From Zobellia galactanivorans (lineage in GTDB: Bacteria; Bacteroidota; Bacteroidia; Flavobacteriales; Flavobacteriaceae), in contig NC_015844.1 of NCBI RefSeq assembly GCF_000973105.1, positions 496,001-560,000 of the forward strand: a DNA stretch of 64,000 bases. Direction: 5' to 3'. The position numbers were made by a program, and so were the translations under genes. Positions 11,906-32,694 of this stretch are shown here, in pieces. Position 1 is the stretch's first letter. Each line of letters begins with the position of its first letter. The notes beneath the pieces were generated by a model. It made no database searches, had not been told where the DNA came from, and saw only the letters and a program-made list of their open reading frames with translations.

Positions 11906-14368
11906 TCAAGGCAAAGGGTTTAATTCATCCATGTACGTCGTTTTGGTTATTCCTTGGTTATTTGAAATAACTATACCCGTAGAAGTTAAACCATCTTCTA
12001 TTGTAATGTTATGTATTCCTTTTAAATAGACCTCCCCATTTGCAGGCATAGTAAAACTACCTGAACCTGTTTTGTTGATTGAACTACCTGACACAGTATT
12101 CCATGTATAATCAAGCGTCAGAAGAACTGTTCCTCCACCTGGAAAGGGTTGGGTTCCTACATTAAAAAACGCCCCTCCCTTACCACTGGCCGAATTAGTA
12201 GACATCGTAATGGTAACCCTAGATCCCGGAGGGCCGGTATAACGGCCCGTTGAACGATTGAAGGTAATGGAAATAACTGGTGTTTTTACTGTAATCGTTA
12301 TCGTCGCGCTCACCGCAGGGTTGATTCCGTCATTGATGGTATAGGTAATCTCATCGTTGCCCGAAAAGCCATTGTTAGGGGTATAGCTGATCACCGTACC
12401 CGAAATGCTAGCCGTTCCGTTCGCAGGGTTGCCTTGGATGCCCACAGTAAGGGGGGCGTTCTCGGGATCCATGATCTCCCCGGCCACATCGATGGTATTA
12501 TTGCTCGAGTTCCCTTCGACGGTCACCGTAAGGTCGTTCGCCGTCGGGGCCCCGTTTGCCACCGTATTCACCGTTACCGTAATCGTCGCGCTCACCGCAG
12601 GGTTGATTCCGTCATTGACGGTATAGATGATAACGTCATTGCCCGAAAAGCCATTATTAGGGGTATAGCTGATTACCGTACCCGAAATGCTGGCCGTTCC
12701 GTTCACAGGGTTGCCTTGGATGCCCACAGTAAGGGGGGCGTTCTCGGGATCCATGATCTGCCCGGCCACATCGATGGTATTATTGCTCGAGTTCCCTTCG
12801 ACGGTCACCGTAAGGTCGTTCGCCGTCGGGGCCCCGTTTGCCACCGTATTCACCGTTACCGTAATCGTCGCGCTCACCGCAGGGTTGATTCCGTCATTGA
12901 TGGTATAGGTAATCTCATCGTTGCCCGAAAAGCCATTATTAGGGGTATAGCTGATCACCGTACCCGAAATGCTGGCCGTTCCGTTCACAGGGTTGCCTTG
13001 GATGCCCACAGTAAGGGGGGCGTTCTCGGGATCCATGATCTCCCCGGCCACATCGATGGTATTATTGCTCGAGTTCCCTTCGACGGTCACCGTAAGGTCG
13101 TTCGCCGTCGGGGGGCCGTTTACGACCGTATTTACATTAACAGTAACGGTATATGCTCTGGATACATCGCCCTCGGTGACCGTATAGGTAACCGGATTGG
13201 TAAAGTCCTGTTCGACCTCCGGTTCCGGGCTTATCGAGTCACCCGTAAAGGTTATCACCGGGGCAAGGGACTTCGCGTCCGTACCTACGGGAAGGTCCAC
13301 AGTAATATCGGTGCCCGATATGTTGCCTTCCACCCCATTGATTGTAAAGGCCCTTATCTCCGGTTCCGCGGCGACTACGGCTACGTTCACGGTCCACTCC
13401 TGGACATCACCGTTACCGGCCGTGACCGTATAGGTGACGGGATTCGAGAAATCAAGCTCCGCATCCGCCGTGGGGGATACCGTCGCGCCCTCCGATACCC
13501 TAAGCTCCCCGGGGGCCGTGGCCAATTCCGTTCCCTCGGGGACATTTACGGATACCGTATGAGCATCGGGGTCGATCGTGGACGTACCGATCTGTCCCGG
13601 CAATGAGAAGGCCACGATGTCGTTGCCCTCCGGTGACAGTTCCTCCACCACCTCAAGGCGCACCTCCGCGGTAAGTTCCTGACCGTTGCCGTCCCTCAGG
13701 TCGAAGGTAAGGATGACCGTACCAAGGGCTTCCGCCATGAAATTGTATCGATAGGTACCGGGAACGATATCCACATAGGCGTCCATTTCCAATCCCGTAC
13801 CGTCCTCCAGGGTAAGTTCCCCCGACCCCTCGACCATACCGTAACTGCGTTCGTACGCCACATCGCCCGTTCCCTCGTTGCCCAAGGTGACCGTAATCGT
13901 CGTAAGGCCGCCGACCAAAAGCTCGGTGTCCGACGCCGTGGCCGTCCATGTGGCGGGGACCTCCGTCAGTATGTAGTCCAGTTCAAGCTCCTCCGTGAAT
14001 CCGTAGGGGTCCTCGGCAACGAAGCGCACCCTATGGTCACCCACCTCCGACCCGATATAGACCAGGTCCTTGGCCAAACCGTCAAGGGCGTAGGCCCGCC
14101 CGGGCTCCAGCACCTCCCCTTGGCCGTCCTCGAAATGTCCGTCGCCCGATTCCACGGAATAGCTGAAATTATAGGTATAACCTTCCAGCACCTCCTCCGG
14201 GACCACCGTCAAGGCCGTGGGGAGCGGTTCCCCCACATGGCCCTCCTCCGTGTTGTCGCCCGACAGCACGAACTCCACCTCCGTCAAAAGGCCTACGTCC
14301 TTCGTGCAGGCAAACAGGACGGTCAACATCAAAATGAAATACGCTAAGGGTCTGTAGTTCTTGTACAT
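11906..14368 (-). CDS. TraQ-like lipoprotein with cadherin-like repeats (copy A)
   Basis: This lipoprotein has about 820 residues. I start at MYKNYRPLAY, which gives lipobox LFAC; 13 upstream codons are unlikely to be used. After the anchor come two domains resembling TraQ (DUF3872) of Bacteroides conjugative transposons: both contain a G-x-G-x-(F/L)-x-x-(D/E)-(D/G) turn (GDGHFEDGQG; GSGELTLEDGTG) and a later D-x-x-G-(F/Q) strand. Two DUF5018-like beta-sandwiches follow, then three almost identical 94-residue cadherin-like repeats, and a unique C-terminal domain of about 130 residues. It is last in the traN-traO-traQ-like operon and is separated by 136 bases from copy B; a TAAATTTG (-7-like) lies at 14424-14431. 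The central part is visibly GC-richer than its neighbours. The TraQ link is by eye and moderate. Confidence 0.7.
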   Translation of the reverse strand: MYKNYRPLAYFILMLTVLFACTKDVGLLTEVEFVLSGDNTEEGHVGEPLPTALTVVPEEVLEGYTYNFSYSVESGDGHFEDGQGEVLEPGRAYALDGLAKDLVYIGSEVGDHRVRFVAEDPYGFTEELELDYILTEVPATWTATASDTELLVGGLTTITVTLGNEGTGDVAYERSYGMVEGSGELTLEDGTGLEMDAYVDIVPGTYRYNFMAEALGTVILTFDLRDGNGQELTAEVRLEVVEELSPEGNDIVAFSLPGQIGTSTIDPDAHTVSVNVPEGTELATAPGELRVSEGATVSPTADAELDFSNPVTYTVTAGNGDVQEWTVNVAVVAAEPEIRAFTINGVEGNISGTDITVDLPVGTDAKSLAPVITFTGDSISPEPEVEQDFTNPVTYTVTEGDVSRAYTVTVNVNTVVNGPPTANDLTVTVEGNSSNNTIDVAGEIMDPENAPLTVGIQGNPVNGTASISGTVISYTPNNGFSGNDEITYTINDGINPAVSATITVTVNTVANGAPTANDLTVTVEGNSSNNTIDVAGQIMDPENAPLTVGIQGNPVNGTASISGTVISYTPNNGFSGNDVIIYTVNDGINPAVSATITVTVNTVANGAPTANDLTVTVEGNSSNNTIDVAGEIMDPENAPLTVGIQGNPANGTASISGTVISYTPNNGFSGNDEITYTINDGINPAVSATITITVKTPVISITFNRSTGRYTGPPGSRVTITMSTNSASGKGGAFFNVGTQPFPGGGTVLLTLDYTWNTVSGSSINKTGSGSFTMPANGEVYLKGIHNITIEDGLTSTGIVISNNQGITKTTYMDELNPLP
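12300..13145 (-). repeat. Three tandem 282-bp cadherin-like coding repeats (copy A)
   Basis: Three consecutive units of 282 bp (94 codons) are nearly identical in DNA. Each encodes a beta-sandwich beginning around PTANDLTVTVEGNSSNN and containing NNGFSGND and DGINPAVSAT. The anchor phrase GGTTGATTCCGTCATTGA recurs at about 12322, 12602 and 12884. Boundaries are approximate. Confidence 0.9.
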
Positions 14369-14504
14369 GGTTAAGGAACATTCTATACAATCAGGACAAA
14401 ATAACAACCGTTGATTATTTCATCAAATTTATTCGTTGTAGGGTATATTATTAAAAACTTAAGCTAAAATAAAGAATACATTTATACAAAATGTGCTGAA
14501 TGAC

Positions 14505-17480
14505 CTACCTGGGAATAGCATTATTGGCCATAAAATCCGTTATCGTTTTGCCTCCACTAGAAAAAGTAACGGTAGCCGCACTTGAAGGATCTGAGGAAGA
14601 ATTATGACTACCTGAAATAGTTATACTTCCTGAAGAAGGAAATTGAACAGTTATGCTTTCTGAACTGGGATAAGGACACCCTTCTGCCTGTGCCCCTGGA
14701 CCACAAATTATCCAATTAAAATTCACACTTGAACTCCTTAAAGTAGCCCCTCCATCACCCGTAGCACTTATGCTTATTGTGACATTAGCATTAGGCGGGC
14801 CGCTTAACACACCTGTACTAAGATCCCAAGTTAATTCCGTAGGCGTAGAACAATTAATACTGACCGCTCCTGAAACATCACCTCCGCTTATGGTATCGTC
14901 AGCATCGTTATTCGGGGTGTCCAAGGCAATGGCCACTTTATAATAGCCTGTATAATCAGTGTTAGACAATCGATAAACATTTCCGACAATAAGCTTTGTT
15001 TCTATTTCAATATTGAGTTTTGCCCCGCCTAAACTGCTACCATTACAAAAATTGGCAGTAGCTTCGGTTAAATTTGCCCCTAAACGCTCAAATCGATGAT
15101 ATCGCAACACAGATGATACAGTAATAGTTATGGTCGCGCTCACTGCAGGGTTGATTCCGTCATTGACGGTATAGGTAATCTCATCGTTGCCCGAAAAGCC
15201 ATTGTTAGGGGTATAGCTGATCACCGTACCCGAAATGCCGGCCGTTCCGTTCACAGGGTTGCCTTGGATGCCCACAGTAAGGGGGGCGTTCTCGGGATCC
15301 ATGATCTCCCCGGCCACATCGATGGTATTATTGCTCGAGTTCCCTTCGACGGTCACCGTAAGGTCGTTCGCCGTCGGGGCCCCGTTTGCCACCGTATTCA
15401 CCGTTACCGTAATCGTCGCGCTCACCGCAGGGTTGATTCCGTCATTGACGGTATAAGTGATAACGTCATTGCCCGAAAAGCCATTGTTAGGGGTATAGCT
15501 GATTACCGTACCCGAAATGCTGGCCGTTCCGTTCACAGGGTTGCCTTGGATACCTATCGTGAGAGGGGCGTTCTCGGGATCCATGATCTCCCCGGCCACA
15601 TCGATGGTATTATTGCTCGAGTTCCCTTCGACGGTCACCGTAAGGTCGTTCGCCGTCGGGGCCCCGTTTGCCACCGTATTCACCGTTACCGTAATCGTCG
15701 CGCTCACCGCAGGGTTGATTCCGTCATTGACGGTATAGGTGATAACGTCATTGCCCGAAAAGCCATTGTTAGGGGTATAGCTGATCACCGTACCCGAAAT
15801 GCTGGCCGTTCCGTTCACAGGGTTGCCTTGGATGCCTACCGTGAGAGGGGCGTTCTCGGGATCCATGATCTCCCCGGCCACATCGATGGTATTATTGCTC
15901 GAGTTCCCTTCGACGGTCACCGTAAGGTCGTTCGCCGTCGGGGCCCCGTTTGCCACCGTATTCACCGTTACCGTAATCGTCGCGCTCACCGCAGGGTTGA
16001 TTCCGTCATTGACGGTATAGGTGATAACGTCATTGCCCGAAAAGCCATTGTTAGGGGTATAGCTGATCACCGTACCCGAAATGCTGGCCGTTCCGTTCGC
16101 AGGGTTGCCTTGGATGCCCACAGTAAGGGGGGCGTTCTCGGGATCCCCGATCTCCCCGGCCACATCGATGGTATTATTGCTCGAGTTCCCTTCGACGGTC
16201 ACCGTAAGGTCGTTCGCCGTCGGGGCCCCGTTTACGACCGCATTGACATTCACTGTAACAACATATTCTTTTGTTACACCGCCCTCAGTGACCGTGTAGG
16301 TGACCGGATCGGTAAAGTCCTGTTCTACTTCCGGTTCCGGGCTCACCGATTCCCCTGTGTAGGTTATCACCGGGGCAAGGGCCGTCACATCGGTGCCAGA
16401 GGGGAGGCTTACCGTAATATCGGTGCCCGAAATGACGCCCTCCGTCCCGTTTATCGAGAACAGCGTAATCTCGGGGTCCGCAGCGACCTCGGCGACACTG
16501 ACCGTCCACTCCTGGACATCACCGTTACCGGCCGTGACCGTATAGGTGACGGGATTCGAGAAATCAAGCTCCGCATCCGCCGTGGGGGAGACCGTCGCGC
16601 CCTCCGATACCCTAAGCTCCTCGGGGGCCGTGGCCAATTCCGTTCCCTCGGGGACATTTAGGGATACCGTATGGGCATCGGGGTCGATCACGGACGTACC
16701 GATCTGCCCCGGCAATGAGAAGGCCACGATGTCGTTGCCCTCCGGTGACAGTTCCTCCACCACCTCAAGGCGCACCTCCGCGGTAAGTTCCTGACCGTTG
16801 CCGTCCCTCAGGTCGAAGGTAAGGATGACCGTACCAAGGGCTTCCGCCATGAAATTGTATCGATAGGTACCGGGAACGATATCCACATAGGCCTCCATTT
16901 CCAACCCCGTACCGTCCTCCAGGGTAAGTTCCCCCGATCCCGCGACCATACCGTAACTGCGTTCGTACGCCACATCGCCCGTGCCCTCGTTGCCCAAGGT
17001 GACCGTAATCGTCGTAAGGCCGCCGACCAAAAGCTCGGTGTCCGACGCCGTTGCCGTCCATGTGGCGGGAACCTCGCTAAGGGTATAGGTGAGTTCTAGT
17101 TCCTCCGTAAAGCCATAGGGGTCCTCCGCTAGGACACGCACTTTGTGCTCCCCTACCGTGGTGCCGATATATTGCAGGTTGCCGGTCAATCCGCTAAAGG
17201 GATGTTTCTCCCCGGGAGCAAGGTTTTCCCCCTTGTCGTCCTCGAAACCGCCCTCCCCCGATTCCACCGAATAGGTGAAGCTATAGGTATAGCCTTCCAA
17301 AACTTCCTCCGGGACAACGGTAAGGACCGTAGTGAGCCCTTCGTTAATATGGCCCGTATCGGTATTGTTCCCTACAAAATCGAACTCTACCTCAGTCACC
17401 AGGCCTACCTGCTTCGTACAGGCGATAAGGATGGCTATAACAACCACAGAATATATAAGTTTGTCGTATAGCCTTTTCAC
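14505..17480 (-). CDS. TraQ-like lipoprotein with cadherin-like repeats (copy B)
   Basis: This 991-residue paralogue of the next gene has the same plan: signal peptide with lipobox LIAC, two TraQ-like domains, two DUF5018-like sandwiches, four 94-residue cadherin-like repeats and an unrelated C-terminal domain of about 210 residues (roughly 780-991), rich in Ser, Gly and Thr and with several Cys. The DNA of the central part (roughly 15130-17070) is nearly identical to copy A, while the first TraQ-like domain (about residues 30-130) is diverged and the C-terminal domains are unrelated. The gene starts 20 bases after the traO-like stop. The protein is probably an elongated, outer-membrane-anchored surface rod with a variable tip; this is inference. 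The last 600 coding bases are AT-richer than the repeats, as if the tip were a separate module. Confidence 0.72.
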   Translation of the reverse strand: MKRLYDKLIYSVVVIAILIACTKQVGLVTEVEFDFVGNNTDTGHINEGLTTVLTVVPEEVLEGYTYSFTYSVESGEGGFEDDKGENLAPGEKHPFSGLTGNLQYIGTTVGEHKVRVLAEDPYGFTEELELTYTLSEVPATWTATASDTELLVGGLTTITVTLGNEGTGDVAYERSYGMVAGSGELTLEDGTGLEMEAYVDIVPGTYRYNFMAEALGTVILTFDLRDGNGQELTAEVRLEVVEELSPEGNDIVAFSLPGQIGTSVIDPDAHTVSLNVPEGTELATAPEELRVSEGATVSPTADAELDFSNPVTYTVTAGNGDVQEWTVSVAEVAADPEITLFSINGTEGVISGTDITVSLPSGTDVTALAPVITYTGESVSPEPEVEQDFTDPVTYTVTEGGVTKEYVVTVNVNAVVNGAPTANDLTVTVEGNSSNNTIDVAGEIGDPENAPLTVGIQGNPANGTASISGTVISYTPNNGFSGNDVITYTVNDGINPAVSATITVTVNTVANGAPTANDLTVTVEGNSSNNTIDVAGEIMDPENAPLTVGIQGNPVNGTASISGTVISYTPNNGFSGNDVITYTVNDGINPAVSATITVTVNTVANGAPTANDLTVTVEGNSSNNTIDVAGEIMDPENAPLTIGIQGNPVNGTASISGTVISYTPNNGFSGNDVITYTVNDGINPAVSATITVTVNTVANGAPTANDLTVTVEGNSSNNTIDVAGEIMDPENAPLTVGIQGNPVNGTAGISGTVISYTPNNGFSGNDEITYTVNDGINPAVSATITITVSSVLRYHRFERLGANLTEATANFCNGSSLGGAKLNIEIETKLIVGNVYRLSNTDYTGYYKVAIALDTPNNDADDTISGGDVSGAVSINCSTPTELTWDLSTGVLSGPPNANVTISISATGDGGATLRSSSVNFNWIICGPGAQAEGCPYPSSESITVQFPSSGSITISGSHNSSSDPSSAATVTFSSGGKTITDFMANNAIPR
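15128..16255 (-). repeat. Four tandem 282-bp cadherin-like coding repeats (copy B)
   Basis: Four units of 282 bp, nearly identical to each other and to the units in copy A, lie in tandem. The phrase GGTTGATTCCGTCATTGA recurs at about 15150, 15432, 15714 and 15996. Boundaries are approximate. The array is a clear substrate for unequal recombination. Confidence 0.9.
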
Positions 17481-17500
17481 TTAACTTAATTTAAGTTAAT

Positions 17501-18043
17501 TTATTTATTGAAATAATACCTTAACCCAAGGCCTGTGTAGTTAGTAAAACTCCCGAAATCACTATTTGCATGAAAATATTCCGATGTACGGATGATCAAT
17601 GATATATGCTCACTGACAATAATATCGATATCCCCCGTCAATACGGCTCCGTAAATAAACTTACTTTCCCCATTGACCGATACAATGTTTGATACCTCGA
17701 CCTCTCCGTTATTGACCATTTCATAGCCTGCCAAAACACCGCCCCCTAATGAGAGTGCCTGCATCCGCCTATTTCTACTATAAAGGGTTATGAAATATGA
17801 ATAGCTCGCCGTTAAGCTTGAATAGGGAATAGATTTTATTCCTGACTGATAGTTTGCAATGGAGACATTTAAGGCCAATTCCGTAAAGGTGGTCTCACTA
17901 AGATTATTATCCAGGGTTAACTCACCACCATAACCCTCTCCGAACATACCACCGGAGACCGAAAAAGTATTTGTATAACTTTGCCCTATCATGAAAACGG
18001 GGATGCAAAAAAGTAAGACCGAAAATATTTTTTTAATATTCAA
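17501..18043 (-). CDS. TraO-like outer membrane protein
   Basis: This 180-residue protein has a signal peptide (ending near FMIGQ-SY) and alternating beta strands ending in aromatic residues (GLGLRYYFNK), as expected for a small beta-barrel. Its length and layout resemble TraO of Bacteroidota conjugative transposons (outer-membrane beta-barrel fold, about 190 residues). Its ATG overlaps the stop codon of the upstream TraN-like gene by four bases, which indicates translational coupling. In conjugative elements TraN and TraO are adjacent and belong to the outer-membrane part of the transfer channel. No transfer gene other than the TraN and TraQ relatives is visible here. Confidence 0.7.
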   Translation of the reverse strand: MNIKKIFSVLLFCIPVFMIGQSYTNTFSVSGGMFGEGYGGELTLDNNLSETTFTELALNVSIANYQSGIKSIPYSSLTASYSYFITLYSRNRRMQALSLGGGVLAGYEMVNNGEVEVSNIVSVNGESKFIYGAVLTGDIDIIVSEHISLIIRTSEYFHANSDFGSFTNYTGLGLRYYFNK

Positions 18044-19062
18044 TTGGAAGGGGAATTTACTTGTTTATTATCTAACGGAAGTATCACCATATTGTCGGTG
18101 TCTTTTTCTGCCAAGGCCACATAAATAAGTTCCTTGCTACTTAATTTGAAATTTTTGAAAACATATACGATCTCATTGACACTTGCCGGATCAAGGGATT
18201 CTTGTAGGTTAAAGGTATATCGGGGTTTCATAATTTTTTGTAATTGACCAACAGCCGCTTTTTTAAAGAAACTTACACCATCTATATGATACTCCCTTTT
18301 GGAATTATTCTCAATCTGGAGTATAAAGTAAATTTCTTCCCTGTCAACCAAAATATTGTTCAATTTTAAGACAATTCTTTTATTCTGTCTAAAACTTCTC
18401 TTAAAAACTGTTTTTTGTAAATAGTTGTTTTCACAAAAAATACGATAATATTCCTCCCTATCGACATCATATAAGTCTTGCTCAACCCCGGAAGCGTCAT
18501 TATAAACGGTTCCTTCCGATTCAAGTTTAGGGCTATTTTCTGGAATTATTTGGTTTTCAATGGGATTACTAGGAATTTCTTTCTCAACTATTGCCTCTTT
18601 CTGCATTTCTACCCCTTCGTTTATCGAAGGTTTAGGCAAAGGGGATTCTTGGGTTTCTTGTAAATCTTTGCGGGGTTCTTGGTCCGTTTCAGTTTGAACC
18701 GTAGGCCCTTGATTTAGTTTCCCCACCGCTTGCTCAGGTGAAATTATATAATTGAACTTTTCTACATTCTCTGAATAACTCAAGTTAAACGAAAAGATAA
18801 AACCATTTTCAGTTATCACCGTAAGGTTACTGTTCTTTCCTTTTCTAGCTTGTAAGGCCCCTATATTCGAGCTTTCATCATAGGTAAACCTAAAATTAAC
18901 CCCAGGTTCTACAATTTTCACCAGTTTGGACGGAAAAAATAGACTCACAGTACTATTCTCGTTACATGCTACCGCCAATGGGGATTGGGCGACCATAGTA
19001 TTACCCACTATCAAGAAAAAAAAACCGATAAATAAATTAAAGAGAATCGGGGATACCTTCAT
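18040..19062 (-). CDS. TraN-like protein (DUF4138)
   Basis: This 340-residue exported protein has a signal peptide (ending MVAQS-P) and an N-terminal beta domain that begins with a phrase about numeric steady-state features of DUF4138 (NSTVSLFFPSKLVKIVEPG). A Pro/Glu-rich linker (about residues 118-195) separates it from a C-terminal beta domain containing KLNNILVDREEIYFILQIENNS and a late segment with VYVFKNFKLSSKELIYVAL. This pattern of N-terminal strand, linker and late NNS-x-x-x-Y strand fits the conjugative transposon TraN family; in Bacteroides the protein is about 300-330 residues. It is the first gene of the four-gene operon and has a good Bacteroidota promoter at 19137-19166. Confidence 0.72.
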   Translation of the reverse strand: MKVSPILFNLFIGFFFLIVGNTMVAQSPLAVACNENSTVSLFFPSKLVKIVEPGVNFRFTYDESSNIGALQARKGKNSNLTVITENGFIFSFNLSYSENVEKFNYIISPEQAVGKLNQGPTVQTETDQEPRKDLQETQESPLPKPSINEGVEMQKEAIVEKEIPSNPIENQIIPENSPKLESEGTVYNDASGVEQDLYDVDREEYYRIFCENNYLQKTVFKRSFRQNKRIVLKLNNILVDREEIYFILQIENNSKREYHIDGVSFFKKAAVGQLQKIMKPRYTFNLQESLDPASVNEIVYVFKNFKLSSKELIYVALAEKDTDNMVILPLDNKQVNSPSN

Positions 19063-21038: not shown

Positions 21039-21586
21039 TTATGTAGGTTTTTGAACGAACACATCTTTTTCGAAGTATTTAAAATGCTCTTTAACAACTA
21101 CCGAGCTATCAGAAGGAATGTCGTATACTATTTCCTCCATGATACGACCTCTTACTGTCTGATACCCTTTTTTTCTAGCGAAAATTCCAAAACTAGGAGT
21201 AAATGTCCCATCGCTAAAAGTATCTTTTTTTATCAATCCGTTTTCATATTCATTTTCTACAATTACCGTTAAGAAATGGTAATCCGATAGATAATATTCG
21301 TCCGATGAATAGTTGGAATTATAGCTCAAAACTTTTCCTACATTTTTACCCACTACCATCGTATCGGGTATTTCCAAACTAAAGAAAGAACTGTTTTTTA
21401 AGTCTATTTCCCCATTATTCAGATAATGTATCGATTGATTCTTGTACATACTGTCATGGATGACCAAGTACTCCTCCAAACTCTTTGGTTCACCATCTTG
21501 TCGGTAATAGTTCCACCAACCTTTTTTAATATTTTTTTGAAAAAGTCCCTTTGCTTTCAGCTTCCCATTTCTGTAAAATGAAGTGA
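21039..21586 (-). pseudogene. YwqK/MORN-type protein, 5' end lost at an IS insertion
   Basis: The frame reads without a stop from the IS5 element edge to 21039. Upstream of the first Met (at 21479) it encodes FYRNGKLKAKGLFQK and then GWWNYYRQDGEPKS, the G-x-W-x-x-Y-x-x-(D/N)-G pattern of MORN-like YwqK antitoxin-family repeats, so the Met-initiated frame of 146 residues is not the natural N-terminus. When the IS element and one TGA copy are removed in silico, an in-frame TAG appears five codons upstream, so the 5' part is missing even beyond the insertion. YwqK-type proteins are common as immunity or antitoxin partners. The function of this remnant is unknown. Confidence 0.7.
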
Positions 21587-22484
21587 TTTAGACTTTTTTT
21601 TTGGATCGAAAGATAGGGCTACGGATATTTGTGTTGCGACACTCAAACTCCATAGCCCATGTACAAAGTACTCGACAAAGATACCATAGAAATGGAAATA
21701 GTTCCTAATATCCCGATGGCTAGACGCGGTTTTCCCCCTAGGGTAGAACTGTCCGAGATAGTCAATGCCGTTCTCTACAAGATGAAGACAGGTGTGCAAT
21801 GGGAATACTTGCCCGTAACGGCTCTTTTTGCTCAAAGGGCATTGACTTGGCAAGGTGTTTACTACCACTTCAGGAAATGGTGCCTATCAGGGACCTTCTA
21901 CCGATGTTGGACGAGCATACTTGAAAAATATAGGGACAGGCTCGACCTTTCCAGTGTAGACCTTGACGGCAGTCACACTCCTGCCAAACGGGGCGGCGAG
22001 GATGTACAATATCAAGGAAGGAAGAAATCGAAAACGACAAACGCCCTTTACCTGACCGATAGACAGGGATTGCCCCTGGCCATGTCGCAACCCGTGGAGG
22101 GCAACCATAACGACCTGTATGAAATAGAGGTGCAGTTCGAGGTGGTCACGGCAACACTTGAAAATTCCAGAATAGATATCGGGGGGGCTGTTTCTCAACG
22201 CCGATGCGGGTTTTGATTCCAAAGATTTCAGGTCGGCCTGTGCGGCCAAGGACATCAATGCCAACGTTTGTTTCAACAAAAGAAACGGGAATACGGACAG
22301 GGACGAGTATTTTGACCAAAAACTATATCGCGAACGATATGCGGTAGAGCGCACCAATGCATGGATGGACAGCTTTCGTTCCTTGCTCAACAGGTTCGAT
22401 ACCACAACGGAAAGCTGGAAAGGGTTCAACTATTTGTCTTTTATCGTACTGGCCCTAAAAAAGTTTAAAATTAAAAAGTCTAAA
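21587..22484 (+). mobile_element. IS5-family insertion sequence (898 bp)
   Basis: The element has perfect 12-bp terminal inverted repeats TTTAGACTTTTT (21587-21598) and AAAAAGTCTAAA (22473-22484), flanked by a 3-bp direct repeat TGA (21584-21586 and 22485-22487). A TNA-type 3-bp target duplication and a DUF4096-type transposase fit the IS427/IS1031 side of the IS5 family. It marks the downstream edge of the PKS island. Confidence 0.88.
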
Positions 22485-22487
22485 TGA
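21659..22487 (+). pseudogene. IS5-family transposase, frameshifted at a G7 run
   Basis: The first frame (21659-22216, 185 residues) has the DUF4096 N-terminal domain (RGFPPRVELSEIVNAVLYKM) and the first catalytic Asp in DLDGSHTPAK. The second part continues in another frame with LFLNADAGFDSKDFR (second Asp) and YAVERTNAWMDSFR (catalytic Glu in the Y-x-x-R-x-x-x-E box), ending at TGA 22485-22487. The two frames join at a run of seven G (22191-22197); removing one G restores a single frame of about 275 codons. This may be an inactivating indel, a sequencing error, or programmed +1 frameshifting, which some IS5-family elements use. Confidence 0.82.
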
Positions 22488-22586
22488 GTTCGCTTTGATA
22501 CTAAAGCATATCAAATGATAACAACGAAAGTTTGAGGGCAAAAAAAAGGTAAAATGTGCTATTCTTTTTTGGAATTTATTGTGTCT

Positions 22587-23303
22587 TTAATCATCGAAAT
22601 TTTTGCCTTTTTTTCCTTCCGTAGCCTTGTTATTTATTAATATTTGGTTTATCAACTCTTGTGCAAAACCTTCTTTTTGATTCAAGTAATAAAAATGAGC
22701 TCCAGTAAAAACCTTTATACTAAAGTAACCACTAGTAGTTTTTTTCCAGGATTTAGCGGCATCGGGGTGTAACTTATCTGTACTCCCGTAAATAAAATGA
22801 ACAGGCACCATGTGAGGCCTAAAAAAACGTTTAGGCCATTGATCTAGTATAATAAGATCTTTCTTGAATGGTAAAATGGTCGAATGGTCTACTGCCTTAA
22901 CTGTTTCTTTAGATAATCCACCTAATCGAATTAGCAAACGAACAACATCTTCATTTGAAAAATGATACCGTTTCCGATCCTTATGAATTGAGGGACCTTC
23001 TTTACCAGACACAATGACTTGACATGGTAATTTTTGCTTTTCACTAATAACTTTATGTAACAGGCAATGAACAATCAATGCTCCCATGGAATGACCAAAT
23101 AATATGTAAGTTTCATCAAACTCCATCTGATCATAATACGTGTCTATTAATTCATCAAAAGAAATACTATGACTTTCTTTAAAACGAATACCCTTACCAG
23201 GGGCACTCAGCTGAACCAGCTTGATGCCCTCCGGCAAATATGTTTCTAAAAAATCAAATGCTCTCTCTGTCCCTCCTGCAAAAGGAAAACAAATTAGTTT
23301 CAT
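22587..23303 (-). CDS. Type II thioesterase of the PKS cluster
   Basis: This 238-residue alpha/beta hydrolase belongs to the TesA/GrsT type II thioesterase family, which removes stalled or wrong acyl groups from carrier proteins. It starts with the family opening LICFPFAGGT, has nucleophile S72 in GHSMG, and catalytic H203 in TGAHFYYL near the C-terminus; an Asp in YGSTDKLHP is the third member. It starts four bases after the PKS stop codon, so the two are clearly in one operon. Confidence 0.92.
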   Translation of the reverse strand: MKLICFPFAGGTERAFDFLETYLPEGIKLVQLSAPGKGIRFKESHSISFDELIDTYYDQMEFDETYILFGHSMGALIVHCLLHKVISEKQKLPCQVIVSGKEGPSIHKDRKRYHFSNEDVVRLLIRLGGLSKETVKAVDHSTILPFKKDLIILDQWPKRFFRPHMVPVHFIYGSTDKLHPDAAKSWKKTTSGYFSIKVFTGAHFYYLNQKEGFAQELINQILINNKATEGKKGKNFDD

Positions 23304-23307
23304 ATAA

Positions 23308-26300
23308 CTAGTTTTCTACAATACCACCTAAATGCTCTTCAACTTTCGTTAAGATAATTTCACTTAACCGATTGAGGCTGGAGCCATTTAATAAATCCAT
23401 AATAGAAAGTTCTACCCCAAGCATCGCTTTAATCGCCACAACTATTTCAACAGAAACTAATGAATCTACTCCCATCATATTAATTCCCTCTTCCGGGTTG
23501 ATGGAATCGGGGTTCATTTTCATTACATTGGCAAATACTACGATTGTTTTTTCAAGAATAACTCTTATTCTATCTTTTTCACCACAGTCTTTAAGTTCCT
23601 CTACCAGAGATCTTAACTCCTTAGAAAGTGCATTAGTGCCGGAAAACTGATCAACAATGCTTTTAAATCTGGATGAATTAGCTACTCTCGGATTTATCGC
23701 ACTCCATACCTCCCAATCCACATCGAAAAAGCAAATCTGAGCAGGCTTTTCACTTAAAATATAATCAAGCATACGCAATGCGGTTCGGGTATCAAACCCT
23801 TTAACTCCTGCTGCATCCATTATCAGACCTACATGTTCATTTCGGGAAACCACACCAACCTCGGCCAGCACACCTAAATTTAAACTGGTACACGCCAGAT
23901 TTTGTGCATTTCTCCAGTGCGAGAAATTATCTAAAAATGCATTCGCTGCCACATAATTCCCTTGTCCTACGTTACCAATTAAGGATGAAATAGACGAAAA
24001 ACAAAGAAAAAAGTCCAGAGCGTAAGAACCGAGTGCATTATGAAGGTTAATGGCTCCCAGTACTTTGGGATTCATAACACGTAAGAAACGTTCTTCATCC
24101 AAATCCTTCATAAAGGCATCATCCAACACCATGGCTCCGTGAAAAACTCCTTTAAAAGCAATGGTATCTTGCGATAGAGAATCAATCAGCTTTTTAACTT
24201 CATCTGTATTGGTGATATCCAGTTTATGAACATATACCTCCGTAACACCAGCTTTATTCACCCGATCAATAAATGCCTGCCTTTCCATATCTTTTACGCC
24301 ACTTCGGGAACATAAGACAACTTTCTTTACCTCTTTTCCAATAAGCCATTTGGCAATTTCAAAACCGAAACCGGCAGTACCTCCGGTGATTAGAAATGCT
24401 CCGTCTGAATCAATCCCAGATTTAGCAGTGGTCAATTCCACCTCACCTTCTTCAAAATTCAGTGTTACCTTACCAATATGCTTACTTTTATTCATAAACT
24501 TGAACGCCTCCTCGATACCCTTTGCAGGAAATGAAGTTACAGGTATTGGTTTATAGTCTTCATCCTGGAACTTGGTATAGAGAATTTGCAACAACTCATG
24601 TGTTTTTTTCGGTCGTTGCATAAACATTTGATCAATGTCAATGTGAAAAAAGCTAACATTTCTATTGAAGGTCTGCATGGGCAAACCCTTGTTAAGTACG
24701 ATATCCTTTTTACCAATTTCAATAAACCGGCCGTAATCGGCCAATAACTCGAATGATTGCACCAGAGACTCTCCAGAAATAGCGTTTAAAACCACATCCA
24801 CGCCTTTACCATCGGTGATATCCATAACATCTTTTACATAATCCAAGCTTCGGGAATAAAGGATGTGCTCCACACCTTCCGCTCTCAGGTGGGCTCTCTT
24901 CTCTTCGGTACTGGTTGTTGTAATAATTTTAGCGTTTAATTTTTTTGCTATTTGAATAGCTGCCAAACCTACTCCTCCTGTCCCGTTATGAATCAAGACT
25001 GTTTCTCCTTCAGAAAGATCGGCCTTATCAACCAATGCATGCCATGCGGTAATAAAAGGTATGGCAATATTCATTTCGTCATAAGATAATGTGGTCGCCT
25101 TTTTAACGTAGAAATCGGGCTTCGTAGTAATATATCTGGTAAAACCACCGTCCTTTGCCAGCATCAAAATATCATCTCCAATAGCAATGTCCGATACATT
25201 TTTTCCTTTGTTGATAACGGTACCTACCACTTCCATACTTATGCTATTCTGAAAATAGCTGTTTTTCAACGCATCTTGGGAAATCTGTCCATTTATTTTC
25301 AAGACATCCTTGAAATTCAAGGAGGCAGATTTTACTTTTAATGTAATTTCGTCCTCAGACGGTTCGACAATAGTGCTCTCTACCAAAGAAAAACCTTCAG
25401 CGCCTTTTCCTTTTTCATGTATAATCTGAAAAGGCTCATCATTGGCTGCTTTTCGACTAAAACCAAGAACCTTAGGTTCTGAAGGTTTGCTTAATGACCT
25501 GACAAACCGGCTATTTCCCCTTAATGCAATATCTTCTTCTACTCCCAACAATTGTAGCAATATTGATTTAGGGTTTTCTAGATTGTAGTGGTCGGTATCC
25601 AATGATAAAGGCGAAATATTTGGATGTTCGTTTCCAATCACGTGGTTTAAACCGAGCAGAGCTCCAGAATTGATATTCATATCATCGGTATCCAGCACCT
25701 GGTGACCATTCAGAGTTAAAATTACTAACTGAACCGGTCCTGTACCTTTTAAAGACTGAAAAAAAGAAAGTAACGGAAAGGTAATTTCCTGAACAGCCTT
25801 GTAACTTAGTTCTTTCTTTTCATCTAGAAAAGGTGCATAAATCAATCTGGTAACTGAATTCTTTTCTTGTTCCAGAAGATTCTTATCAAATTGATCCATT
25901 TGAATAACCTTGGCCCCATAAAACTTAAGGTCGTCCATAAATGGCTTTGCCTTTTTAGATGAAGGCCCAAAGAATAAGATTGTTTCATTCTCAAAATCAG
26001 GCTCACCTTCCAGTAAGGGAATATTCTTCCAGTTAAACTCATAAAACAATTCGTTAATATCTCGCTCCTCATTTTGCGCATTACTTTCAATCGACTGGCA
26101 ATTAAGACCTTCCAATTGAGCTATAACGGTACCATCTTTACCTATCAAAGTCATATTGGCAATCAGGTATTCATGGCCTATCTCTGTAATCTCAGCATGG
26201 CAATAGATATATTCATTCAATTTCGGCCTGGTGTGAAAATGCACGAAATTGATTTTTGTCGGCACGAATGCGCCCGGAGCGACCTCTCGTCCGTTAAGCG

Positions 26301-29300
26301 CTGCGATAACACTTTGAAAACAAGCGTCTAAGATACTAGGATGCAGTAAATATTCATGATCTTTAACTATGGATTTATGTGGTTTTATCTTTACCAATAG
26401 TTCCTTATCGCCTTTACATTTAATCTCTTGGATACCTCGAAATACCGGGCCGTATTTCAAACCAATGGCATCCAACGCATCATAGATTCCTTCAATGGTC
26501 CTCTCTTTTTCAAAAGCTTTAAGCGTTGCTAAAAAAGCTATTTTATCATGTTTGCCATTAATACATTCTATCACTTTTGCCGATGCATGCTGAGTCCATG
26601 AATTACTTTCATCGCTATGGGAAAATATGTCGCACGTGGAGTTTGAAGGATTAAAAGTCGTATTTAAAAACTGAACTTCATCCTCATTAAATATCAAGAC
26701 ATTACTAAACAGAACATCTTTTAGCGTACATGTCTCTGTTCCACTCACTTTTTGATTCATGGCCAGTATGGCCTCCACATAGGCTGCACCGGGAAAAACT
26801 ACCGCTCCGGAAACAACATGGTCCTGTAAATAGGGTAAAAATTGCTCATTGACTTCCATCTCAAACGAAGGAAGGTGATAAGGGTACGTTTGATTTAGAA
26901 ATGGATGACCTTCCAATCCTAATCTGTCTTCACGTGAAGAGTTACTTTCAGAGAAATAGCTCTGGTTTTCCCATTCATATAATGGTAATTTTATGTGATT
27001 TCCACCAGTATAGAATTTTGACCAGTCTATAGCGTATCCAATCGCATAAAAATGGGCAAGGTTATCTAAAATGTGTTGCTCCCCATCTTCTTTTCGTCTC
27101 AATGAAAAAAGAAGGTTGGTCTTTTTGCCCAGACGTTCTGCACATTCATTGATAGAATGCCTTAAAACCGGATGAGGTCCAACCTCTAACATGGTGTGGT
27201 ATCCATCTGAAAGAGTCTGAACGATAGCATCTGAAAATCTCACGGGCTGCCGTACGTTGTCCCACCAATACGTATTGTTAAATGACGCCCCTTCCATTTT
27301 CCTAGCCGTTACCGAAGAATAAATCGGAATTTCTGGTGGTTGGGGTGAAATAACATCCAGAGAATCCAATAACTCTCGTTTTAGACCATCCATTTGGTAA
27401 GAATGATAGGCAACATCTACCTCCAACATTTTATTGAAAACATTCAACTCCGTTAGCTTGTTACTTATATGTTGAAGCCTCTTGGTCTTACCTGCCAATG
27501 TAACCGTGCTGGGACTGTTAATGGCTGCAACAGAAACATCGCCGTAAGCTTCTATGTACTGATTTATTTCATTTTCTGGAAGCCCCACTGCCAGCATGGA
27601 TCCCTTTCCTGCGGCTTTTTGCTGAATCCTGCTTCTATGATAACTTACTATTAAACAGTCTTTTAATCTTAACGCTCCAGAAACGTATGCTGCCGTTACT
27701 TCACCTACTGAATGTCCAAGTACAGCATCGGGTGTAATACCGTAGGAAGCCCAAAGTTCGGTTAATGCAGCCTGTAAAAAGAAATTGGCAGGCTGTGCAA
27801 ACTGCGTTTCCTTAATTCTGGAATCTTCTTTCTCCTTTAGTAGCTCTTCAAGCATACTCCAACCGGTAATAGCCTGAAATATCATATCGTATTCTTCCCA
27901 TTTTTGCTTAAACAATTCACTCGAATGGTATAAGTCACGACCCATGGCAAACCATTGAGGTCCCATGCCTGTGAAGATAAAAAGTTTAGGAGATAATTCG
28001 GTTGTAGCCGTATAGGTTTGCACACCTTTCACACTATTTCCTTCGGCAAATTCGTTCAACTGCCACATGAGTTCATCCATCGAATTGGCCACAAATATAG
28101 CCCTAGTATTTAGTTTAGATCTTCTGTTAAGTAAAGTATATAGGGTGTCTGCATAATTATCCTCTGTTAAGTGTGATGCTATTTTTTTGGCATATGCCCG
28201 TAACGAATAATCACTTTTAGCCGTTAAAGGAAGTATGTAAACACGAGAGGTTTTCAATCCTGATGGCAGTTCCTTTTGCTCAATGGTCGTATTAGATAAC
28301 AATACGTTGGCATTGGTTCCTCCGTATCCGAATGAATTGACCAAACCGTATCTTTCCTGTTGGTCGGACAACCTTCTTACATCGGTAGACACCTTCAGTT
28401 TGGCATTTTCAAAGTCAATTTGTGGATTTGGGTTTGTAAAATGAAGGTGGGGCACCGTTTGGTTATACTTTAAAACCAAAATAGCCTTTATTAAACCGGC
28501 CACACCAGAAGCGGCTTCGAGGTGGCCTATGTTTGTTTTGACTGAACCGACAGCCACATGCTCTTCTTTTGTAACCTTCTCTTTGATCACGGTATCTAAA
28601 GCAGAAAATTCTATCGGATCTCCAGTAGGAGTACCAGTTCCATGAGCTTCTACATAGCAAATATCATTGGGGTCTATTTCAGACTGATCGATAACTTTTC
28701 GCAATAACTGCTTTTGGGAATCTCCATTCGGCACCGTAATTCCTTCTGTTTTACCGTCCTGATTACTCCCTGTTTGATGAATGACCGCATAAACAATATC
28801 ATTATCCAATAAGGCTTCTTCCAAGGGTTTAATCAGTATAACTCCAACACCTTCGCCTCTAACATATCCCTGAGCGTCCGCATCGAATGTTTTGCATCTG
28901 GAATGACTGGATAAAAATTGTCCTTTACTCATAACAATGGGATATTCCGGTTTGAGCATCAGGTTTACGCCACCTGCAATGGCCATTTTGGACTCACCTG
29001 CCCAGATACTCTGACAGGCATAATGGATACCAACCAAAGAAGAAGAACAGGCCGTATCTATAGAAAGACTAGGACCTCTAAGATCCAATGAATACGAAAT
29101 ACGGTTAGATAACATGGCCATTGTACAGCTGGTTGCTGTTGGAGATTTTATTTGATTTCGGTTTTTAGAGCCTAACTGTATCAACTTATTGTCCAGTGTA
29201 AAACCTCCTATAAACACTCCCGTATCACTTCCTCTGAATTTCGATTCGGGAATTCCTGCATCTTCAAAAGCCTCCCAGGTAGTTTGAAGTAATAATCTTT

Positions 29301-29586
29301 GTTGCGGGTCTAAGGTTTCAGCCTCAAATGGACTGATCCCAAAAAATAACGGATCAAATTCTGTTACATCTGAGGTTAAAAAACCAAACTGGGATGAAAA
29401 CGTTTTACCTTTCCTGTTCTTATTCTGACTAAAAAAACGCCTGTTGTCCCATCTACTTTTAGGAACATTAATAATGGCATCTGTTCCTGATTTCAATAAA
29501 TCCCAGAATTGTTCTGGGGTATTGGAATTACCTGGAAATCTACATCCAACTCCAATAATGGCTAATTGTTTTTGTTTCATTGTCAT
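23308..29586 (-). CDS. Type I polyketide synthase, fully reducing module (KS-AT-DH-ER-KR-ACP)
   Basis: This 2092-residue single-module PKS has all reductive domains. KS spans about 5-430 (C180 in DTACSSS, His in EAHGTGTPTGDP and NIGHLEAASG). AT spans about 530-830 (S626 in GHSVGE; the substrate motif reads VAYHS, nearer to the malonyl HAFH than the methylmalonyl YASH type). DH spans about 900-1180 (H923 in DHVVSGAVVFPG, D1087 in SILDACFQS). After a structural linker, ER lies about 1450-1720 (NGTGGVGLAAIQIAKKL) and KR about 1730-1910 (GGTAGFGFEIAKW, Y1878 in GNYVAAN). ACP carries the phosphopantetheine Ser S2042 in MGVDSLVS. No thioesterase domain is fused, and the separate type II enzyme follows. 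The layout is that of iterative highly reducing synthases making saturated, lipid-like chains. The product is unknown. The cluster is AT-richer than the sus region. Confidence 0.95.
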   Translation of the reverse strand: MTMKQKQLAIIGVGCRFPGNSNTPEQFWDLLKSGTDAIINVPKSRWDNRRFFSQNKNRKGKTFSSQFGFLTSDVTEFDPLFFGISPFEAETLDPQQRLLLQTTWEAFEDAGIPESKFRGSDTGVFIGGFTLDNKLIQLGSKNRNQIKSPTATSCTMAMLSNRISYSLDLRGPSLSIDTACSSSLVGIHYACQSIWAGESKMAIAGGVNLMLKPEYPIVMSKGQFLSSHSRCKTFDADAQGYVRGEGVGVILIKPLEEALLDNDIVYAVIHQTGSNQDGKTEGITVPNGDSQKQLLRKVIDQSEIDPNDICYVEAHGTGTPTGDPIEFSALDTVIKEKVTKEEHVAVGSVKTNIGHLEAASGVAGLIKAILVLKYNQTVPHLHFTNPNPQIDFENAKLKVSTDVRRLSDQQERYGLVNSFGYGGTNANVLLSNTTIEQKELPSGLKTSRVYILPLTAKSDYSLRAYAKKIASHLTEDNYADTLYTLLNRRSKLNTRAIFVANSMDELMWQLNEFAEGNSVKGVQTYTATTELSPKLFIFTGMGPQWFAMGRDLYHSSELFKQKWEEYDMIFQAITGWSMLEELLKEKEDSRIKETQFAQPANFFLQAALTELWASYGITPDAVLGHSVGEVTAAYVSGALRLKDCLIVSYHRSRIQQKAAGKGSMLAVGLPENEINQYIEAYGDVSVAAINSPSTVTLAGKTKRLQHISNKLTELNVFNKMLEVDVAYHSYQMDGLKRELLDSLDVISPQPPEIPIYSSVTARKMEGASFNNTYWWDNVRQPVRFSDAIVQTLSDGYHTMLEVGPHPVLRHSINECAERLGKKTNLLFSLRRKEDGEQHILDNLAHFYAIGYAIDWSKFYTGGNHIKLPLYEWENQSYFSESNSSREDRLGLEGHPFLNQTYPYHLPSFEMEVNEQFLPYLQDHVVSGAVVFPGAAYVEAILAMNQKVSGTETCTLKDVLFSNVLIFNEDEVQFLNTTFNPSNSTCDIFSHSDESNSWTQHASAKVIECINGKHDKIAFLATLKAFEKERTIEGIYDALDAIGLKYGPVFRGIQEIKCKGDKELLVKIKPHKSIVKDHEYLLHPSILDACFQSVIAALNGREVAPGAFVPTKINFVHFHTRPKLNEYIYCHAEITEIGHEYLIANMTLIGKDGTVIAQLEGLNCQSIESNAQNEERDINELFYEFNWKNIPLLEGEPDFENETILFFGPSSKKAKPFMDDLKFYGAKVIQMDQFDKNLLEQEKNSVTRLIYAPFLDEKKELSYKAVQEITFPLLSFFQSLKGTGPVQLVILTLNGHQVLDTDDMNINSGALLGLNHVIGNEHPNISPLSLDTDHYNLENPKSILLQLLGVEEDIALRGNSRFVRSLSKPSEPKVLGFSRKAANDEPFQIIHEKGKGAEGFSLVESTIVEPSEDEITLKVKSASLNFKDVLKINGQISQDALKNSYFQNSISMEVVGTVINKGKNVSDIAIGDDILMLAKDGGFTRYITTKPDFYVKKATTLSYDEMNIAIPFITAWHALVDKADLSEGETVLIHNGTGGVGLAAIQIAKKLNAKIITTTSTEEKRAHLRAEGVEHILYSRSLDYVKDVMDITDGKGVDVVLNAISGESLVQSFELLADYGRFIEIGKKDIVLNKGLPMQTFNRNVSFFHIDIDQMFMQRPKKTHELLQILYTKFQDEDYKPIPVTSFPAKGIEEAFKFMNKSKHIGKVTLNFEEGEVELTTAKSGIDSDGAFLITGGTAGFGFEIAKWLIGKEVKKVVLCSRSGVKDMERQAFIDRVNKAGVTEVYVHKLDITNTDEVKKLIDSLSQDTIAFKGVFHGAMVLDDAFMKDLDEERFLRVMNPKVLGAINLHNALGSYALDFFLCFSSISSLIGNVGQGNYVAANAFLDNFSHWRNAQNLACTSLNLGVLAEVGVVSRNEHVGLIMDAAGVKGFDTRTALRMLDYILSEKPAQICFFDVDWEVWSAINPRVANSSRFKSIVDQFSGTNALSKELRSLVEELKDCGEKDRIRVILEKTIVVFANVMKMNPDSINPEEGINMMGVDSLVSVEIVVAIKAMLGVELSIMDLLNGSSLNRLSEIILTKVEEHLGGIVEN

Positions 29587-29831
29587 TCATTTTGGGTTCT
29601 TAATTTTTCTCTTAAACTGGTTTAACACATAAAAAAGACTTTTTATATTCATTTAATGTGATGGACAATAAACTAGAACATTCAGGATACCTTTACCTTT
29701 TTTTAGATTGACTGTCATGTTCGAAACTTTAATTAAATCCAGAAGCCCTGTTCATTCCCCAATTAGTAGGACAGGTTTTCTACAAATCCAGGTTAATTTA
29801 TGCTGCTTTTTTAAATATGTCCATTGGCCTA

Positions 29832-30672
29832 TCAAAGGGCTGTTGAAACTGTTACATCTTTCCACGCTTCGAGATCGGTTTTTACCTGCTCCATTTTTTT
29901 ATAGGCTATATCATAAGCATCTTGACCAAGAAATAAGTGTAGTGGAGGATCCATTACTTCACTTATTTTTATCATAGCGTTAGCTGCCTTTATAGGATCT
30001 CCGGCTTGATTCTCATCAATTTCACGCAGATGTGCTTCTTGTATTTGACGGGCTTCGGTATACTCAACAATTGGGTTAGCGGGTACGGCTATAGATCCTT
30101 TCTTTAGAAAATTAGTCTTGAAATATCCAGGATGTACAACTGTCGCCTTAATTCCAAATGATTTAATATCAGCAGCCAAAGCCTCTGTAAAAGCCGTTAC
30201 TGCAAATTTGGTAGCGCTATAGATACCCCAAAAAGGAAAGTTTGCAGTATAACCTGCAATAGAAGATATGTTAATAATATGTCCGGATTTTTGTTTCCGT
30301 AGGTAAGGCATTGCTTTTCTAATGACATGTGCCAGACCAAAAACATTTACATCAAAACTAGCCCTTATCTCGGCGTCAGAAATTTTTTCTAGTGTTCCCA
30401 TCTGGCCATATCCTGCATTATTAACAATAACATCAATTTGCCCGAAATGAGCGACTACGGCCTCAATAGCTTCTTGCACACTTTGCTCTTTTACTAGATC
30501 CATTTCAATCGGCAGAAACGTTTTAGTAACTTTACTTACCTCATTTTTCTAATGATTTTATATCGCGTGAGGTTGCTGCTACATAATGTCCACTAGCTAG
30601 TAATTGCTTTACAAGTGCTAATCCCAAACCTTTAGATGCTCCGGTTACAAACCATACATTATTCCTGTTCAT
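29832..30672 (-). pseudogene. Short-chain dehydrogenase/reductase, frameshifted
   Basis: The gene encodes a classical SDR: TGASKGLGLAL (NAD(P) binding) near the N-terminus, NNAGYGQMG, and catalytic Y-x-x-x-K in YSATKFAVTAF, followed by HPGYFKTNF. The first 53 or so codons (from ATG 30672-30670) are in one frame and the remainder (29832 to about 30540) in another, and the join is at the A5/T stretch around 30541-30547, where one extra base stops the frame (GAAAAATGAGG). Removing one base gives about 279 residues, normal for the family. A downstream in-frame ATG at 30503 would lack the cofactor loop, so the gene is either broken or mis-sequenced. It lies upstream of the PKS on the same strand and could tailor its product. 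Confidence 0.85.
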
Positions 30673-30968
30673 AATTATTTTTTTTTGTTAATTGCTGACT
30701 TATATAGTTTTTTTATAGTTATCTAATTTTTAATACAACAATGATTAAAGTGTTAAATACTTTCAATACTATCTGTGAATTAAAGAATGGGTTTATGAAA
30801 GAATCAACAAGTTGTTTGTGATCCGAAATTAGGATGTTGTTGAAAAATATGATATCCTGATAAAGAATGATTTTTGAATAGTGGTTAATAAGGATAATAT
30901 ATTGATAGACTGTAAACTGAACTCTGTCTGAAAAAGATTATAATTATTAATTTTATTCAGACAGAATC

Positions 30969-32224: not shown

Positions 32225-32243
32225 TTTACAGACCCTTCATAAG

Positions 32244-32669: not shown

Positions 32670-32694
32670 TTCTTATCTGAATTTAACTGAACAC

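Follow-up and report, generated by a model that had tools for sequence, protein, structure and literature searches.

A TraN/TraO/TraQ-like operon beside a type VI secretion locus of Zobellia galactanivorans: a putative domesticated adhesion module

We analysed a stretch of 64,000 nucleotides from the genome of Zobellia galactanivorans, a member of a marine genus associated with algae (hereafter the window), which carries an operon of relatives of the conjugation proteins TraN, TraO and TraQ. The genome (label G000; other G and L labels designate further genomes and loci) is a single contig of 5,521,712 bases, and the window corresponds to C1:496001-560000. The operon lies on the minus strand at positions 11906-19062 of the window and comprises four genes, encoding a TraN-like protein, a TraO-like protein and two long lipoproteins, A and B:

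18040-19062, minus strand: TraN-like gene (TraN1), 340 amino acids (aa); PF13595, 2.7e-15; AlphaFold model available
17501-18043, minus strand: TraO-like gene, 180 aa; PF10626, 1e-15
14505-17480, minus strand: long lipoprotein A, 991 aa; lipobox LIAC, TraQ domain, DUF5018-like and Big_9 repeats, tip
11906-14368, minus strand: long lipoprotein B, about 820 aa; lipobox LFAC, same plan as A, diverged tip

The reading frames of TraN1 and the TraO-like gene share 4 bp, and lipoprotein A starts 20 bp after the TraO-like gene. The initial annotation, made from the sequence alone, had described four coupled genes; this holds for the first three, which are tightly spaced, while the 136-bp gap between A and B means that the fourth is coupled less tightly. 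The open reading frame (ORF) of lipoprotein B is listed from a TTG at 14407, but the position of its lipoprotein signal, which starts at an ATG at 14368, indicates that the true gene is probably 11906-14368. The likeness to TraN, TraO and TraQ was confirmed, as the profile searches proposed in that annotation (DUF4138, TraO and TraQ) matched all four proteins above the Pfam cut-offs in a protein scan: TraN1 against DUF4138 (PF13595) at 56.8 bits (cut-off 31.1), the TraO-like protein against PF10626 at 58.5 bits (cut-off 25) and lipoproteins A and B against TraQ (PF12988) at 28.6 and 29.4 bits (about 1e-6, cut-off 27). In a six-frame search the two TraQ domains of the window reached only 24.9 and 23.3 bits, below the cut-off of 27. 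TraN1 scored 61.6 bits against the TraN equivalog TIGR03780, far under its cut-off of 164.1, which marks it, on sequence grounds, as a diverged relative of TraN and not a standard TraN. It consists of a signal sequence (read by eye), an N-terminal beta domain, a disordered linker and a C-terminal beta domain. The TraO-like protein, the sole PF10626 match in the genome, is one that we take from its family to be an outer-membrane barrel. In the nearest named relative, Zobellia uliginosa DSM 2061 (L054; genome G001), TraN is 94% identical.

The operon had also been credited with one good promoter, which we did not recover: the 380 bp before TraN1 contained no minus-strand sigma-70-type site and no match to the Bacteroidota-type TTTG-N17-23-TAnnTTTG. 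Sigma-70-type sites in the region numbered 33, compared to 19.5 (standard deviation 4.2) in shuffled sequences. The second half of the Bacteroidota-type pattern, TAnnTTTG, was by itself no more frequent in the window than expected by chance (70 copies against 70.3); one of them lies about 75 bp before TraN1 and another between A and B.

The operon does not stand alone. It is an accessory end of a type VI secretion system (T6SS) locus of type iii (T6SSiii), overlooked in the initial annotation, which is located at 36.5-52.7 kb of the window, 17.5 kb upstream of the TraN operon; the operon is transcribed in the same direction as tssB-tssC. The features of this region are:

36550-37899, minus strand: tssC (sheath); PF17541, 1.6e-240 at C1:532556-533845
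37918-38370, minus strand: presumably tssB, named by its position beside tssC
38492-38878, minus strand: tssD (Hcp); BLAST cluster shared with L018:1209-1598, which matches PF17642 (6e-50)
39250-40284, minus strand: tssP-like; N-terminal membrane helix (by eye), PKD domains PF18911 (1.5e-15), same plan as TssP (PMC10781749)
40307-52738, plus strand: NlpC/P60 peptidase, tssG-like, tssN, tssK, tssO-like, clpV, tssE, tssF, vgrG and PAAR
21578-33346: insertion of 11.8 kb between tssC and the TraN operon, absent from the collinear G001 locus

Between 40307 and 52738, the NlpC/P60, TssN (PF17555, 1.3e-92), TssK (PF05936), TssE (gp25) and VgrG assignments are backed by profiles; the names tssG-like, tssO-like, clpV, tssF and PAAR are assumed by us from position and size. 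The locus was assigned to T6SSiii by the presence of TssC, TssD (via the BLAST cluster), TssN, TssK, TssE and VgrG in one place. TssR (PF17643) had no match in the window genome and was found in 3 of the 25 genomes tested. Z. uliginosa has a collinear region in which the operon begins 7.8 kb after tssC; the insertion makes up most of the 17.5 kb that separate the two in the window. Profiles identified a thioesterase and a short-chain dehydrogenase in the insertion, which presumably also carries a 2092-aa polyketide synthase-like gene and transposase-like genes. The gene beside the insertion (21039-21479) is shorter than its Z. uliginosa counterpart.

Next, the linkage between operon and T6SSiii was analysed in two samples. 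The first comprised 199 Flavobacteriaceae genomes, of which 13 had a match to TraQ, 16 to TraO (14 over the cut-off), 59 to DUF4138 and 23 to TssC. The genome_contigs collection (84,980 species) was scanned by TraN alignment and not by T6SS genes; 18 of 37 pattern matches were confirmed as loci (11 TraN1, 5 TraN2, described below, and 2 conventional), a lower bound because the scan needs one of two short peptide patterns. The Algoriphagus loci L070 and L071 are conventional loci of the type IV secretion system (T4SS) type. A co-oriented tssC was present within 10 kb upstream in 9 of the 11 TraN1 loci of the scan. Both samples together gave 13 distinct TraN1 loci (the window, L018, L019, L021, L024, L056-L060 and L062-L064); L054, L055, L061 and L065-L067, which duplicate contigs of G001, G011 and G026, were excluded from this number and from the trees. 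Eleven of the 13 have a co-oriented tssC upstream, at 0.26-7.8 kb in ten and at 17.5 kb in the window. The outer flanks vary between linked loci (genes that we take to be leu-like in G026, recG-like in L057, L058, L062 and L063, and SusC-like in Zobellia) while the gene order is unchanged, so that the package has remained a unit in changing surroundings. The T6SS of G080 is split: tssN, tssK, clpV-like, tssE and tssF-like genes are about 140 kb from TraN1, and the only TssC of the genome lies 0.26 kb before TraN1. All five genomes of the TraN1-TraO type (G000, G001, G011, G026 and G080) have TssC and TssN, compared to 23 of 199 with T6SSiii overall (p 1.4e-5; 4/4 when counted by genus, p 1.2e-4; neither value corrected for kinship), and T6SSiii is present in 7 of the 9 genomes with a stand-alone TraO. 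We consider it highly probable that the operon is linked to T6SSiii.

A second, lone TraN-like gene (TraN2) belongs to the clade of TraN1. It directly follows the last effector/immunity genes at the far end of the T6SS island in G026 (L034). Less than 10 kb separates it from vgrG in G011 (L044) and in Z. russellii (L069), and in the window genome (C1:575640) it is about 28 kb past vgrG. In Z. uliginosa DSM 2061 its neighbours match those in Z. galactanivorans, and it is placed on a different contig, where no link to the T6SS was seen. None of the genes within 10 kb of the copy in Z. uliginosa C3R17 (L068) was labelled as a T6SS gene. TraN1 and TraN2 form one clade in the tree (100/98), with TraN1 alone at 91/95 and TraN2 alone at 88/81; under midpoint rooting this clade groups with flavobacterial conjugative TraN. 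The tree label T6SS_TraN1 takes in the unlinked loci L019 and L056. T6SS-type TraO is likewise one clade (100/100). As judged from the sequences, this structure fits a single capture followed by duplication, with several long branches making the deeper branching order unsure.

Between the window and Z. uliginosa, the ratio of non-synonymous to synonymous substitutions (dN/dS) was 0.109 for TraN1, 0.024 for TraO and 0.168 for TraN2, and 0.241 and 0.426 for lipoproteins A and B. By comparison, six core T6SS genes gave 0.00-0.05, VgrG 0.29 and the gene before the operon 0.14. The low values argue against a decaying relic.

In both long lipoproteins the first 130-145 residues match TraQ and the middle consists of immunoglobulin (Ig)/cadherin-like repeats. 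The cadherin-like repeats noticed initially were thus verified (Cadherin/Big_9 domains in 282-bp tandem units). The repeats and tips are:

15133-16244: tandem repeats of lipoprotein A, unit 282 bp (94 aa), 3.9 copies, 96% matches
12296-13132: tandem repeats of lipoprotein B, unit 282 bp (94 aa), 3.0 copies, 95% matches
14508-14849, minus strand: tip domain A, beta-sandwich; AlphaFold mean predicted local distance difference test score (pLDDT) 95.8
11909-12280, minus strand: tip domain B, same tip group as A, 28% identity to tip A

Heads (first 135 aa) and tips (last 125 aa) were compared by BLAST-linked grouping in proteins of at least 200 aa. Loci L050 and L069 (doubtful cluster membership) and the 142-aa TraQ of L033 were left aside, three end-cut proteins contributed no tip, and the lipoproteins of L031 and L032 fall outside the cluster; some lipoboxes (LLAC and alike) that the script pattern missed were read by eye. 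The heads of all 30 long proteins form one linked family, but the 27 tips fall into 11 groups (10, 5, 3 and 2 members plus seven singles), in agreement with the variable tips of the initial annotation. Both window tips sit in the group of 10. Five of the six long tips from T4SS loci cluster in a single group that contains nothing else. The DNA of the window paralogues A and B is 95-100% identical over residues 151-300 and then diverges, and that of the Z. uliginosa paralogues is 98-100% identical over residues 51-400 before diverging. When lipoprotein B is compared between the two species, protein identity is 92% over residues 151-300 and falls to about 20% in the tip. Such a profile is what recombination in the stalk with exchange of tips would be expected to leave, and it is a pattern in the sequences in which no event was itself observed. 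Two further TraQ-headed lipoproteins (1176 and 1428 aa) are encoded in the window genome without adjacent TraN or TraO, at C1:592065-595595 and 3219898-3224184 (L016 and L017), and their tips belong to the window tip group.

In a Foldseek search with tip A, PDB rows 1-18 were all LecB/BclA-type (LecB/PA-IIL) lectins, with a best E of 5.3e-4, just one row at E <=0.001, template modelling (TM) scores of 0.43-0.50 and root-mean-square deviations of 10.5-14. No Pfam lectin matched tip A, the known calcium loop of these lectins was not seen in it by eye, and a viral fold search with the tip gave nothing at E <=0.001. Sugar binding by tip A may be taken from the model as a weak lead only. Sequence matches of lipoprotein A to solved structures were DUF4960 proteins as well as putative glycoside hydrolases, through the Ig-like repeats. 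A lipoprotein follows TraO as a rule: in 25 of 28 loci the gene within 310 bp after TraO belongs to the long-lipoprotein cluster (23) or is another lipobox gene (2), and of the three other loci, two stop at a contig end.

The AlphaFold model of TraN1 (mean pLDDT 74.9) has two beta domains joined by a disordered linker. The two PDB chains that matched it best, 7spb (E 7e-7) and 7oko (E 4.8e-6), come from outer-membrane core complexes of F-type T4SSs; the TM scores were low (0.2-0.3), perhaps reflecting the mutually unfixed domains of the model. Nine chains matched at E <=0.001, of which the seven others are unrelated appendage-type folds. In a sequence search against solved structures, the TraO-like protein had no match and TraN1 matched only ABC transporters (E about 0.9). 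In G186, an ORF of 360 aa (L032:5721-6803) joins a TraN-like N-terminal part (by eye) to a TraO barrel, a fusion which suggests that TraN and TraO may act together.

The operon was described initially as lacking a conjugation system. For TraG this is correct, as the profile search located the only TraG of the genome at C1:3589960, megabases away from the window. There, TraG and a conventional TraN (C1:3589960-3593126, L007) are part of a conjugative element, at which PF10626 and PF12988 found no TraO or TraQ partner. TraG was present in 9 of the 15 genomes tested and was not found in G011, G019, G026, G138, G177 and G186. No match to the tra clusters was found within 10 kb in L054-L064. The suggested neighbourhood survey thus recovered TraN-TraO-lipoprotein operons without TraG, and the genomes G011 and G026 lack any TraG match. 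TraO loci occur in three contexts: T4SS loci with TraG, elements with DUF5712 and a coupling protein, and stand-alone operons. The T4SS loci of G049, G080 (C1), G135 and G172 combine TraG with a long TraQ of 582-1118 aa, and that of G127 has a short classical TraQ (142 aa). The DUF5712/coupling-protein elements were identified by profiles in G019 and by BLAST cluster in G177 (C2); at L020:7027-11490 and L031:9049-13248, TraO and a TraQ-like or other lipoprotein come after the genes for DUF5712 and a T4SS coupling protein, and perhaps these are mobilizable elements that carry nothing of a transfer system but its surface end. Plasmid tra operons of Flagellimonas marinaquae (NZ_CP092416) and Flavobacterium sp. 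GSB-24 (NZ_AP027044) encode TraQ proteins of 1118 and 3016 aa, the latter at L073:12525-21575. The enlarged TraQ is therefore not peculiar to the orphan operon, contrary to the first impression: it is carried by plasmid and chromosomal T4SS loci, and long TraQ belongs to flavobacterial conjugation too. A tblastn search of plasmids with TraN1 returned three records, all below 27% identity, and the TraN1 type was thus not seen on plasmids.

We propose, with a probability of roughly 0.55, that the operon encodes an outer-membrane adhesion module which has been domesticated and works with T6SSiii. The module would derive from the conjugative apparatus that flavobacterial plasmids and integrative and conjugative elements (ICEs) carry, and would now be an accessory part of one T6SSiii lineage. 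TraO would form an outer-membrane barrel held from inside by TraN1, a putative VirB9/TraK-like periplasmic protein, and the TraQ-headed lipoproteins would be displayed on the cell surface, where an Ig-like stalk would carry an exchangeable tip. The tip may bind neighbouring cells, as in mating-pair formation, and T6SSiii would then fire into the cell held in contact. The domestication of transfer proteins suspected in the initial annotation is supported by the family matches, the purifying selection, the lack of TraG nearby and the genomes (G011 and G026) without TraG; the cell-contact role suspected there is plausible, but as a T6SSiii accessory function that is itself inferred. A more specific version, in which TraN and TraO form a platform that T6SSiii fires through or beside, and recombining TraQ-headed lipoproteins are prey receptors whose lectin-like tips set the targets, is advanced only tentatively.

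Several observations weigh against this proposal. Eighteen of the 23 T6SSiii genomes do not have the module, which is thus an accessory and not required for T6SSiii in general. No TssC match was found in G143 (100% complete) and G186 (88% complete), both with a stand-alone TraO. Common descent of a single island could account for the linkage, lipoprotein B is loosely constrained (dN/dS 0.43), and the lectin-like match of the tip is weak. No T6SS gene lies within 10 kb upstream of the Pseudozobellia (L019) and Maribacter luteus (L056) loci, and TraO-lipoprotein pairs stand away from T6SS genes at L026, L029 and L030, where none occurs in the stretch analysed. These unlinked loci, together with the extra TraQ-headed lipoproteins elsewhere in the window genome, would also suit an independent adhesin or surface organelle that shares the T6SS island by chance. 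We regard this as unlikely, given that the operon co-segregates with tssC where the T6SS is split (G080), that its gene order is constant despite differing outer flanks and that TraN2 sits at the opposite end of the island in G026. Moreover, G138 and G177, which carry stand-alone operons, have T6SSiii as well, and in the Pseudozobellia genome (G011) T6SSiii sits on a separate contig.

It is still more doubtful that TraN, TraO and a lipoprotein substitute for TssR by providing the T6SSiii membrane complex with its outer-membrane ring or anchor. The two T4SS core chains that best match TraN1 and the TraN-TraO fusion ORF of G186 would fit such a structure, as would the lack of a TssR match in all 10 TraO-bearing genomes tested; TssR is absent or unidentifiable in 31% of systems according to the part of PMC10781749 considered here. 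However, TssR was also unmatched in 12 of the 15 other genomes, so that its loss does not track the module and a clean replacement pattern is unproven, and repeat stalks with variable tips are ill-suited to a structural ring. A further possibility, in which the operon is left over from an ICE that formerly bore the T6SS, would recall the Bacteroidales GA1 and GA2 systems, whose tra genes lie beside T6SS loci (PMC4714493, in part), and the grouping of the T6SS-type TraN clade with flavobacterial conjugative TraN is consistent with it. This is very improbable: TraN1 and TraO are open reading frames in 13 of 13 loci, dN/dS is low, the same subset of genes is retained in several genera, and neither TraG (out of reach in G000, G001, G011, G026 and G080) nor the tra clusters (unmatched within 10 kb in L054-L064) are close to the operon. 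Least credible of all is a helper acting in trans for a T4SS element elsewhere in the genome. The single TraG locus at 3.59 Mb, at which TraO and TraQ profiles find nothing, might need such help, but it has a distant TraN of its own, and G011 and G026 have the operon with no TraG match.

Other genes of the T6SSiii locus were also recorded. The NlpC/P60 gene (40307-40978) between the tssP-like and tssG-like genes is also present in L034, L043, L047, L057-L061, L064 and L074, and its product is a candidate for the unexplained peptidoglycan-crossing step of T6SSiii. A 751-aa ORF of no family (52739-54994) follows PAAR, and a Tle1-like phospholipase gene is followed by a DUF2931 gene at 60014-62640; these are probable T6SS effector and immunity genes.

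We know of no account of how T6SSiii cells grip and select their targets. The module provides testable candidates for this function and for the outer-membrane part (TssR), which PMC10781749 did not identify in many flavobacterial T6SSiii systems. If the proposal is true, two contact-dependent machines, conjugation and T6SS, have exchanged parts, and surface contact is suggested as the role of TraO and TraQ within conjugation. In the open-licence literature searched, no report describes a domesticated module of TraN/TraO/TraQ relatives tied to T6SSiii. Among known systems, the flavobacterial plasmid tra operons (NZ_CP092416 and NZ_AP027044) have the same order of DUF4138, TraO and long TraQ, but there these genes follow TraM in a longer operon, with TraG and TraK also annotated in GSB-24, whereas the window has only the outer-membrane end, beside T6SSiii. 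The GA1 and GA2 T6SSs of Bacteroidales are carried on ICEs with TraN in GA1 and TraN plus TraO in GA2; as far as the sections of PMC4714493 used here describe, their tra genes, including TraG, belong to the ICE that carries the T6SS, in contrast to the window type, which has TraN-TraO-TraQ relatives only and occurs in several genera. T6SSiii of Bacteroides fragilis is built on TssNQOPR, in which TssR is a possible outer-membrane lipoprotein that is often unidentified in Flavobacteriales; the five components, as set out in the portion of PMC10781749 referred to above, do not include TraN, TraO or TraQ relatives. The window system shares TssN, TssP-like and TssO-like proteins with it, and TssR was not detected. 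Finally, the module may be likened, by description and not by sequence, to TasL of Vibrio fischeri, a lipoprotein of >380 kDa encoded in a T6SS island and responsible for contact with some targets (PMC9040878, in part). TasL belongs to another phylum and has fibronectin type III-like repeats, while the window proteins have Ig/cadherin-like repeats and TraN/TraO partners; as far as TasL is described there, both are large repeat-bearing lipoproteins encoded together with a T6SS.

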